Below, piece after piece: positions 21,830 to 28,744 of a stretch of 42,793 nt of DNA. Position 1 is the stretch's first letter. Every line of letters starts with the position of its first letter. Source of the stretch: Marinitoga hydrogenitolerans DSM 16785 (GTDB lineage Bacteria > Thermotogota > Thermotogae > Petrotogales > Petrotogaceae); NCBI RefSeq assembly GCF_900129175.1, contig NZ_FQUI01000005.1, positions 1 to 42,793 on the forward strand, written 5' to 3'. The notes beneath the pieces are model-generated. The model saw only the letters and a program-made list of their open reading frames with translations. It had not been told where the DNA came from and did not search any database. The position numbers and the translations under genes were made by a program.

Positions 21830-22312
21830 ATGGGAGAAAAAACTTTTTTAATTAAAGAAAAAACAATTAATGGGTTAAAAGAAATGAAAAAAAACGAAAA
21901 TGTGGATTATGGAAAACTAGCAGATAAAATAGCAGAACTAAAAGAAATGGAAGATAAATTAAAAGCTCGTAGAGTTGAATTACAAAAGAAACTTACAGAA
22001 CAATTGCCAAGACCTTTAGATAAAGCAACATTATATGTAGAAGGCTCTAAAGCAAAACTAAAAGTATCATGGACTGAAAGTTATAAGATTAGTCAAAAAG
22101 AAGCTAAGATTTTTGCTGAAAGATATCCAAGAGTAGCCCAAAAAGTTTTTTCTATTACTTATAAGCCAAAAAAGAGTAGCATATCAACAATGGAAAGAAC
22201 TATTAAGGATGCTCCTGAATACGAAAAGCCATTACTTGAATTAAAACAAATAATAAAAATAGAAGAAGACGTAAGAGTTTCAATAGAAAAGGCAGGTGAA
22301 AAAGATGAGTGA
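21830..22312 (+). CDS. Early protein paired with RecT
   Basis: A 160-residue protein. Residues 25-60 form a strong coiled coil (LADKIAELKEMEDKLKARRV). A beta region (LYVEGSKAKLKVSWTESYKI) and helices follow. Its last codons overlap the start of the RecT gene by 8 bases, so the two are coupled. The place next to a single-strand annealing protein is often held by an exonuclease or Gam-like inhibitor; I see no exonuclease motif. A Gam-like role is possible only by analogy. Confidence 0.65.
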   Translation: MGEKTFLIKEKTINGLKEMKKNENVDYGKLADKIAELKEMEDKLKARRVELQKKLTEQLPRPLDKATLYVEGSKAKLKVSWTESYKISQKEAKIFAERYPRVAQKVFSITYKPKKSSISTMERTIKDAPEYEKPLLELKQIIKIEEDVRVSIEKAGEKDE

Positions 22313-23186
22313 AATTAAACCTGTCGAGTCAAAAGAAATAAAATTTTCAAGCGAAGAAGTTCAATTAATAAAAGAAACTGTTGCTAAAGGCACAACAGAT
22401 GTAGAATTTAGATTTTTTTTGGAGTTAGCTAAACGTTATGACTTGGATCCGTTTAAAAAACAAATTTGGTGCGTAAAGTATGGAAATTCACCGGCAACTA
22501 TTTTTACTGGAAGAGATGGATTTTTACATATTGCTCATAAGTCTGGTAAATTTGCAAGTTTAAAGACATTTGCTTTGGTTCTAGATAAAAATGGAGAAGT
22601 AAAGGAAGCTGATGTTTGTCCTGATCCTAGAAGATTAGTTGGAGCAAAATGTTATGTTTTTAGAAACGATTGGAAAGAACCTTTAGTTCAATCTGTTCTT
22701 TTAAGAGAATATAACACTGGGAAAAGCAATTGGGCAAAAATGCCAGAGACAATGATCAAAAAAGTTGCAGAATCTATGGCATTAAGAAAAGCTTTTGATG
22801 TCTCAGGATTATATGCTCCTGAAGAATTTGATCAAGTAAAAGAAGAACAATACACCGAAACAAAAAATATAAGAAAGCAAAAAACTATGTCAAAAAATAA
22901 TAAAAATATAAATCCACAATTGATTTTAGTTTTAAGAGAAAAAGTAAAAACTTTATCTGAAATGCTTGGTGTAAAAGAAGAAATGATATTGCACGAATTA
23001 GAAAGAAGAGTGAAAAAAACAATTGGAGAATTTACAAATGATGAAAGAAATCAAGCAATAAAATTTCTTATTAAATGGATTGAAAAAGAAGAAAAAGCAC
23101 AACAACCTGAAATAATAATTGAGGAACCATATAAAGAAGAGAATTTAATGGCAGAGGCAGCAAGATTATTTGAAGAAAACGTTTAG
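22305..23186 (+). CDS. RecT/Bet-family single-strand annealing protein
   Basis: A 293-residue recombinase that anneals complementary strands in phage recombination. The core (about 20-175) shows the Bet/RecT pattern: LELAKRYDLDPFKKQIWCVK, then ATIFTGRDGFLHIAHKSGKF and the end of the core MPETMIKKVAESMALRKAFD, followed by GLYAPEEFDQ. A lysine-rich linker leads to a helical C-terminal domain (about 205-293). The ATG at 22305 follows GGCAGGTG and overlaps the upstream gene. No dedicated exonuclease is visible in the window. Confidence 0.9.
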   Translation: MSEIKPVESKEIKFSSEEVQLIKETVAKGTTDVEFRFFLELAKRYDLDPFKKQIWCVKYGNSPATIFTGRDGFLHIAHKSGKFASLKTFALVLDKNGEVKEADVCPDPRRLVGAKCYVFRNDWKEPLVQSVLLREYNTGKSNWAKMPETMIKKVAESMALRKAFDVSGLYAPEEFDQVKEEQYTETKNIRKQKTMSKNNKNINPQLILVLREKVKTLSEMLGVKEEMILHELERRVKKTIGEFTNDERNQAIKFLIKWIEKEEKAQQPEIIIEEPYKEENLMAEAARLFEENV

Positions 23187-23212: not shown

Positions 23213-23223
23213 GCTCTTTAATA
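23213..23223 (+). promoter_or_regulatory. boxA-like element
   Basis: GCTCTTTAATA directly after the recT terminator matches the GCTCTTTA core of boxA antitermination signals. Similar copies stand at 19209 and 23710 on the same strand. Confidence 0.4.
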
Positions 23224-23262
23224 TCTTCCCCTTTCAGTGTATTAAGTTGGTGGGATAAAATG

Positions 23263-23450
23263 TTGGGAGTGCAGGATGTATTAATTAGGAGTAGAACGTC
23301 TATGACCACGTACTTTTTCAATTTTACCATTTTTTTTACGGGTATAAGATTTAACTGGAACTATCTTTTTCCCTTTATTTGTTTTGGCCATTATATCACC
23401 TCCTTTCATTGAAAATTAAATAAATTTTAGAATTATATCTGCACTCCCAA
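23263..23450. repeat. 12-bp inverted repeat flanking a small minus-strand gene
   Basis: TTGGGAGTGCAG (23263-23274) and CTGCACTCCCAA (23439-23450) are perfect complements about 165 bases apart. They lie at the predicted 5' end and at the 3' end of the 36-aa gene's transcript, so the RNA ends could pair with each other. Confidence 0.7.
23281..23391 (-). CDS. 36-aa very basic small protein
   Basis: A small minus-strand gene starting after AAAGGAGGTGATATA. The product begins MAKTNKGKKIVPVKSYTRKK and ends VRGHRRSTPN. The VKxYxRK...VRGHxRSxP pattern recurs in small or C-terminal basic segments of many bacterial and phage proteins, so it is probably a genuine conserved peptide. It contains no acidic residue except one Glu. 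It lies opposite to all its neighbours, with its own promoter (TTGATT-18-TATAAT, plus-strand 23455-23484). Function unknown. Confidence 0.65.
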   Translation of the reverse strand: MAKTNKGKKIVPVKSYTRKKNGKIEKVRGHRRSTPN

Positions 23451-23454
23451 TTTT

Positions 23455-23484
23455 ATTATACAACATATTGTTATACAAAATCAA
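23455..23484 (-). promoter_or_regulatory. Promoter of the 36-aa gene with imperfect palindrome
   Basis: Minus-strand TTGATT and TATAAT are 18 bases apart. The spacer holds an imperfect palindrome TATAACAATATGTTGTATA, similar to the antitoxin operator at 17313-17330. An XRE gene diverges just to the right. Confidence 0.5.
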
Positions 23485-23510
23485 GTTTTACCATATATGG
23501 TGGTGATAAA

Positions 23511-23699
23511 ATGTTTTCAGATAATTTAAGAAGAATAAGAATAGAAAATAAAATTAATCAGAGAGAACTTGCAAAAAAATTGAATGTTACACAAGAAACT
23601 ATTAGCTATTGGGAAACTGGGAAAAGGCAACCGACTTTAGACAAATTAGTAAAACTTTCTAAAATATTCAATATTTCAATAGATGATTTATTAAAATAA
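23511..23699 (+). CDS. Small XRE regulator
   Basis: A 62-residue protein consisting of one XRE helix-turn-helix (NKINQRELAKKLNVTQETIS, YWETGKRQP, ISIDDLLK). It diverges from the 36-aa gene and lies just upstream of the replication genes. It may control both. A CCATATATGG palindrome (23491-23500) overlaps its ribosome site region. Confidence 0.85.
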   Translation: MFSDNLRRIRIENKINQRELAKKLNVTQETISYWETGKRQPTLDKLVKLSKIFNISIDDLLK

Positions 23700-28669: not shown

Positions 28670-28744
28670 CAGGATATGGTGTTAATGGTAGCATTCCACA
28701 CTTGGGATGTGGAGGTGCAGGTTCGAATCCTGCTATCCTGACCA
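28670..28744 (+). tRNA. tRNA-Pro (anticodon UGG)
   Basis: A complete cloverleaf: acceptor CAGGATA/TATCCTG, D arm GTGT/GCAT, anticodon stem CCACA/TGTGG with loop CTTGGGA (TGG at 28703-28705), T arm GCAGG/CCTGC with TTCGAAT, discriminator A and encoded CCA (28742-28744). It reads CCA proline codons, frequent in AT-rich phage genes. It lies between early and late genes, not at an attachment site. Confidence 0.93.

Follow-up and report, generated by a model that had tools for sequence, protein, structure and literature searches.

In a prophage of Marinitoga, a heat-loving marine bacterium, a gene for a small basic peptide is flanked by complementary sequences through which the two ends of its mRNA could pair. 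Computational analysis of this gene and its relatives showed that the peptide is conserved, that the pairing is kept through compensatory changes, and that the Shine-Dalgarno sequence is costlier to open. The explanation we favour, at a probability of roughly 0.6, is that the mRNA is kept quiet and protected by a 5′-3′ long-distance interaction in the manner of hok and aapA; the transcription start, the stability and translational control of the message, its activation by trimming and the function of the peptide are the parts of this explanation that we infer. Throughout, "the window" denotes the whole stretch analysed (42,793 nucleotides of Marinitoga hydrogenitolerans DSM 16785), and numbers with the prefix L denote individual loci.

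The window is a prophage. Among annotated phages it is closest to Marinitoga camini virus 1 and virus 2, with which it has mosaic segments in common, several 95-98% identical. The 36-aa basic open reading frame (MAKTNKGKKIVPVKSYTRKKNGKIEKVRGHRRSTPN) occupies 23284..23391 on the minus strand with its stop codon at 23281-23283, and an in-frame upstream ATG would extend it to 42 aa. On one side lies recT (22296-23186, plus strand) and on the other a divergent 62-aa Cro/CI-type HTH gene (23511..23699, plus strand), which has its intergenic region in common with the peptide gene. A perfect 12-bp palindrome, ACCATATATGGT, stands between these two divergent genes at 23490-23501 and is a candidate operator for the HTH protein. 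Downstream of the peptide gene, at 23218..23238 on the minus strand, there is a remnant (CACTGAAAGGGGAAGATATTA) of the ribosome binding site of UF08_74, a gene that is absent here; in both Marinitoga camini viruses this 77-aa gene (phrog_37833) occupies the site of the remnant, where the window has recT-adjacent sequence instead. The prophage also contains a tRNA-Pro(TGG) gene at 28670-28744, and tRNA was the sole match to Rfam models both in the window and in the 15 relatives' loci searched (E <= 1).

The arms that bracket the reading frame are TTGGGAGTGCAG on the 5′ side (23439..23450, minus strand) and CTGCACTCCCAA on the 3′ side (23263..23274, minus strand), the latter 6 nt past the stop codon. 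They are 12 bp long and 100% complementary, with 164 nt between them. A sigma-70-like promoter, TTGATT-18-TATAAT, was predicted by promoter score at 23455..23484 on the minus strand, and the predicted +1 falls on the GGGAGTGCAG arm. Thus the earlier note was right in describing a 36-aa basic protein with complementary mRNA ends and a promoter that sets the RNA start within the arm. This pair is the sole inverted repeat of the window with arms of at least 12 bp, 60-300 nt apart and containing at least 4 G/C, and TTGGGAGTGCAG occurs at just these two sites across the 2.3-Mb genome. Compared with dinucleotide shuffles, the flanking helix had a z of -7.5 when the flanks were 110 nt long and of -3.8 when they were 250 nt long. 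Identical arms were found in the two Marinitoga camini viruses and in L016, and they are unchanged in L016 despite 20 nucleotide differences from the window in the coding region, so that the repeat is kept with the gene, contrary to one of the outcomes that the earlier note named as refuting. A scan of viral contigs for the arm pair of the window returned none under a gap limit of 165, which is too small for L016 in the same collection, and its negative outcome therefore carries little weight. With Marinitoga camini virus 1, the window has an identical 232-bp stretch (23230..23461) that spans and exceeds both arms and beyond which the flanks diverge.

Residues 1-36 of the peptide matched positions 11-46 of 47 of phrog_21154 in a profile search (E 3.6e-23), a family annotated as being of unknown function. 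Counted from its sequence, the peptide has a net charge of +12, and it is not hydrophobic. Compared with L016, the closest relative that is not identical to it, the window gene has 15 synonymous and 2 nonsynonymous codon changes, and between L017 and L018 there are 20 and 5; this synonymous bias indicates that the peptide is under selection, and the codon pattern supports the coding sense of the 36-aa reading frame. An AlphaFold2 model built on a 67-sequence alignment (mean pLDDT 89, pTM 0.43) predicts an all-beta mini-protein of four short strands. The arms of HU can be superposed on some 27 residues of this model, at ~1 Å at best (Foldseek E 2.4 to 8.6, 4-30% identity), a likeness that in the model is a beta hairpin resemblance only and not homology; the resemblance to the HU beta-ribbon fits a nucleic-acid-binding role of the peptide and does not show it. 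Structure and sequence searches for a known fold or solved relative gave no significant match, and the top sequence match, eL18 (E 0.83), was put down to a chance likeness of basic segments. Searches against Pfam, NCBIfam and PADLOC likewise gave no significant match to the peptide, and a search for its motifs or family name found no paper in open-licence texts, which lack most subscription journals.

Relatives of the peptide were collected at 24 loci from viral contigs and 63 from bacterial genomes, the latter representing, by their record titles, Bacillota, Chloroflexota, Bacteroidota, Actinomycetota, Helicobacter and candidate phyla. Removal of near-duplicates and of L055, which has a short flank, reduced the 88 recovered peptides to 74; dropping L005, which duplicates the window gene, and adding L108 then gave 26 short-form and 49 longer-form loci. 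L108, alone new among the 19 loci of a second viral-contig scan, came to light once the pattern had been recognised and conforms to it, and among the extra loci L108, L141, L142 and L143 it alone fitted the peptide pattern. Whole-genome searches added few relatives, in 2 of 103 genomes in the phylum, in 2 of 390 relatives and in 3 of 391 genomes in the class of the Caloranaerobacter genome, whose locus L045 is the same locus as L017. A consensus query returned no match from plasmids, but it missed known phage loci as well, probably owing to the low-complexity filter, and so these two negatives carry no weight.

To score the flanking helix, the best uninterrupted pairing was taken between two flanks of 110 nt, one preceding the start codon and the other following the stop codon, a single-helix criterion adopted after the perfect repeats had been seen. 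Wide-window RNAduplex, which came first and is noisier, reached p <= 0.05 in 9/74 loci, with p = 0.09 for the window gene. By the helix score, 11 of the 74 deduplicated relatives had p <= 0.05 against dinucleotide shuffles (z -2.6 to -18.4), and all of these except L097 belong to the shorter, 36-aa-type subfamily. A helix of -24 kcal/mol or better was present at 9/26 subfamily loci, compared with 0/26 when the downstream flank was read as a direct repeat, 4/303 for cross-locus pairings, 0/26 for flanks 200 nt farther out and 8/1040 for random intervals matched in size and drawn from these loci. At -20 kcal/mol the corresponding figures were 11/26 for the subfamily against 0/26 direct, 14/303 cross-locus, 1/26 far flanks and 50/1040 random. 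One locus that reaches -20, the prophage locus L007, is nevertheless no better than its own shuffles, and L020, at -19.6 and below both thresholds, beats its shuffles (p 0.033).

The helix belongs to part of the family. We accepted it for the window, L016-L020, L042, L043, L053 and L108 (10/26) and for the longer-form L097, and treated L050 as borderline. It is present in all six 36-aa-type loci from viral contigs (L016-L020 and L108) as well as in the window gene, and is absent in L007 and in most chromosomal loci. No helix of -24 kcal/mol was found in 17/26 subfamily loci and not even one of -18 in 13/26, while -18 was reached by 3 of the 49 longer-form loci and missed by 46; an accepted helix is missing from 16/26 loci of the subfamily and from almost all of the longer clostridial forms. 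A search for more distant arms within 250 nt rescued none of the helix-less loci. Among accepted relatives the 3′ arm lies 6-57 nt from the stop codon. In L097 (Enterococcus termitis), a 30-bp perfect inverted repeat surrounds the gene (1899-2145). Four longer-form clostridial loci (L068, L077, L079 and L100) have leaders with GACGG...CCGTC-type complementarity ending right before the Shine-Dalgarno sequence, possibly another leader RNA structure.

The arm sequences differ by lineage. TTGGGAGTGCAG is found in the window and L016, TGATAGGTCCTGA in L017 (and thus in Caloranaerobacter), TGTAAGCCCTGCT in L018, GGGTGCGACGGCCC in L019, GAACCCTGC in L020, GAGGCACGGCAAC in L042 of Dehalococcoidia, GGATCCCGCGCT in L043, GCACGGTAGGC in L053 of Chloroflexi and TGAGCCCTGCAA in L108. 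For L017, L018, L020, L043 and L108, the joined arms were aligned in helix register, the register being chosen by hand. All 45/45 cells of the 9 core pairs were paired, with 0 mispairs; both sides had changed in 6/9 core pairs, and the covariation score of these five loci was reached by 0/500 shuffles. RNAalifold, applied to an unguided MAFFT alignment of the whole messages of the same five loci, returned the closing helix with compensatory changes and added a second helix in which the Shine-Dalgarno sequence of the leader pairs with CTCC in the 3′ UTR. Its covariation term was small (-0.16 of -17.64) because in the MAFFT alignment one locus has its 5′ arm out of place. Departures within the helices of L108, L019 and L050 were G-U wobbles without a mispair, an outcome that the helix definition favours. 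Lockstep change in both arms argues that they pair, and speaks against both chance and a transposon end. Judged from these sequences, the folding itself is probably what evolution preserves, the same fold being built from different letters in other phages.

Minimum-energy folds from arm to arm were closed by the arm helix in 11/11 loci folded. At 60 °C the helix had a mean pair probability of at least 0.83 in 12/12 loci (0.99 for the window gene), and when 150 nt were added on the 3′ side it persisted in 11/12 loci and was lost in L053. The Shine-Dalgarno sequence of the window gene (AAGGAGGT, 23398..23405, minus strand) is partly paired in the minimum-energy fold, with CTCCT near the end of the reading frame (23287-23291). 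The median cost of opening the Shine-Dalgarno sequence was 7.1 kcal/mol in helix-bearing loci (n=11) compared with 3.9 in helix-less members of the subfamily (n=15), 3.5 in longer-form loci (n=48) and 2.7 in genes of Marinitoga camini virus 1 (n=37), a post hoc comparison with unequal segment lengths among the groups and with L050 left out. Removal of the 3′ UTR lowered this cost in the window from 4.8 to 2.2 kcal/mol, and shuffled tails gave 3.5 ± 1.0. The Shine-Dalgarno sequence was strongly freed by this removal only in L017 and L108; the drop was modest in the window, L016, L018 and L020 and there was none in the other six loci, the cost rising in L043 and L097. Because the effects vary in this way, the constant element seems to be the end-to-end helix, with occlusion of the Shine-Dalgarno sequence reached in several ways.

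The position of the arms was compared with predicted promoters in 12 helix-bearing loci. Using a simple promoter score, the -10 box of the top-scoring promoter ended 2-7 nt before the arm in 6/12 loci (the window, L016, L042, L043, L097 and L108). A matching promoter ranked second in L019 and third in L018, and in L053 a promoter ranked second lay 9 nt from the arm. In L017 and L020 plausible -10 boxes stand at the right place by eye, outside the top three of the score, and in L050 the score gave no promoter near the arm. From these promoter positions, it seems that the first nucleotides to be transcribed are where the helix begins. At the other end, Marinitoga camini virus 1 has a further gene 3′ of the arm, so that the transcript need not end there.

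The earlier note had compared the gene with type I toxin mRNAs, and that comparison is supported for the long-range 5′-3′ pairing, which recurs with compensating sequences and begins near the predicted +1; the peptide, as the note remarked, is basic and not hydrophobic. A type I toxin-antitoxin locus proper, with a toxic peptide, an mRNA closed by a long-distance interaction and an antisense RNA, would be a narrower form of the favoured explanation, and the confidence placed in the two overlaps; we consider it unlikely. Type I toxins are mostly small, hydrophobic, membrane-active peptides, while the window peptide (+12) is predicted to be all-beta rather than a hydrophobic helix. In its favour, the predicted mRNA architecture matches the hallmark of type I loci given in the available text of PMC6733600, namely a non-translatable primary transcript, sometimes with a 5′-3′ interaction. 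The same text describes aapA mRNAs as having a 5′-3′ long-distance interaction that is removed by 3′ trimming, and hok as similar (PMC6733600). As in aapA/IsoA and hok/Sok, a short reading frame is combined with predicted pairing of the 5′ end to the 3′ end, a Shine-Dalgarno sequence predicted to be sequestered and a fold kept among relatives (PMC6733600). Unlike those systems, which encode a membrane helix, the window gene encodes a basic, predicted beta peptide; the arms start near the predicted +1 and change freely in sequence between lineages; and the gene resides in phages and also in chromosomes, where it lies beside defence-type genes and mostly has no helix. As to an antisense RNA, a promoter scan of 12 loci gave no consistent sign of one, an antisense promoter beating shuffles (p <= 0.05) in 1/12 (L097, p 0.01), which is about chance level.

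It is more doubtful still that a single regulator binds both arms as DNA, one being an operator at +1 and the other its second copy beyond the gene, brought together by looping, with different regulators, and hence different sites, in different phages. The +1 is a classical operator position, the 5′ arm is located there, and in the window the divergent HTH gene adjoins the same region. Such sites could take either orientation, yet strong pairs were always inverted (9/26 versus 0/26 direct); the wobbles within the helices, subject to the bias of the helix definition, and the co-occurrence of the Shine-Dalgarno/anti-Shine-Dalgarno helix in the five-locus group also speak for RNA. The second suggestion of the earlier note, a tiny mobile element carrying the gene between 12-bp terminal inverted repeats, has very little probability left. 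The repeat is perfect and the 232-bp block is identical between otherwise diverged phages, but that block overshoots the arms by 33 bp and 11 bp, and ordinary phage mosaicism explains it, given the several other segments that are 95-98% identical. Moreover, the repeat has no further copy in the genome, the repeats of other relatives are unrelated in sequence, and no target duplications were seen by eye around the arms; on the overshooting block, the single-locus repeat and the unrelated arms, the mobile insert was rejected. Least probable of all is chance. Inverted repeats do arise occasionally in AT-rich phage DNA, repeats of 11-12 bp, mainly A/T-rich, occur in these phages, and the majority of relatives are without the helix; against this stand the z of -7.5 for the window gene, the 9/26 compared with 8/1040 random intervals, and the compensatory change.

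According to the long-distance interaction that we favour, the two arms would be the two strands of a single RNA helix. The mRNA would begin at, or a few nucleotides from, the 5′ arm, and the 3′ UTR, shortly past the stop codon, would fold back onto the 5′ end. The whole message would then be closed as a multibranch structure in which the Shine-Dalgarno sequence is also paired, with a partner that may lie in the 3′ UTR, at the end of the reading frame or in the 5′ leader depending on the lineage. In the full-length message the 5′ end would be shielded and translation would be poor, and the basic beta-fold peptide would be made in limited amounts, or once the 3′ part had been trimmed. A mechanism of this kind, joining stability and delayed translation, appears to fit the modelled folds best.

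The peptide itself would probably be an accessory protein with which phages contend against host defence. When selected neighbours of chromosomal loci were scanned, a gene matching a defence model lay, by raw count, within ~2 kb of the peptide in 7/12 loci: SIR2 (L040), RloB/AbiLii (L041), a pPIWI-associated nuclease (L043), RmrA-like HTH-M78 (L044), GajA-like (L048), SAVED-HNH (L049) and Mrr-like (L051). In the same scan, none was found in L046, L050, L052, L054 and L058. In Algoriphagus, a GajA-like gene and a SAVED-HNH gene each follow the peptide gene on its own strand. We regard this neighbourhood as a lead on the function of the peptide, not a result. As a tentative proposal that we think rather less likely to be right than wrong, these genes may form a class of riboregulated phage cassettes, in which an arm in the 3′ UTR closes the mRNA from its first nucleotides and co-evolves freely, and in which a beta-fold, nucleic-acid-binding mini-protein serves in the struggle between phages and host defence; in the chromosomes of hosts this peptide is encoded next to defence operons, and the RNA lock is mostly missing.

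Long-distance 5′-3′ mRNA locks are best known from type I toxin-antitoxin loci, in their genes for membrane toxins. In the present loci a predicted lock of this kind, kept through compensating changes, encloses the gene of a conserved hydrophilic peptide, and it does so in phages from several bacterial phyla. If this reading is true, the lock would be a more general means of restraining a small phage gene, and attention would be drawn to an uncharacterised peptide that is also found beside defence-type genes in hosts.
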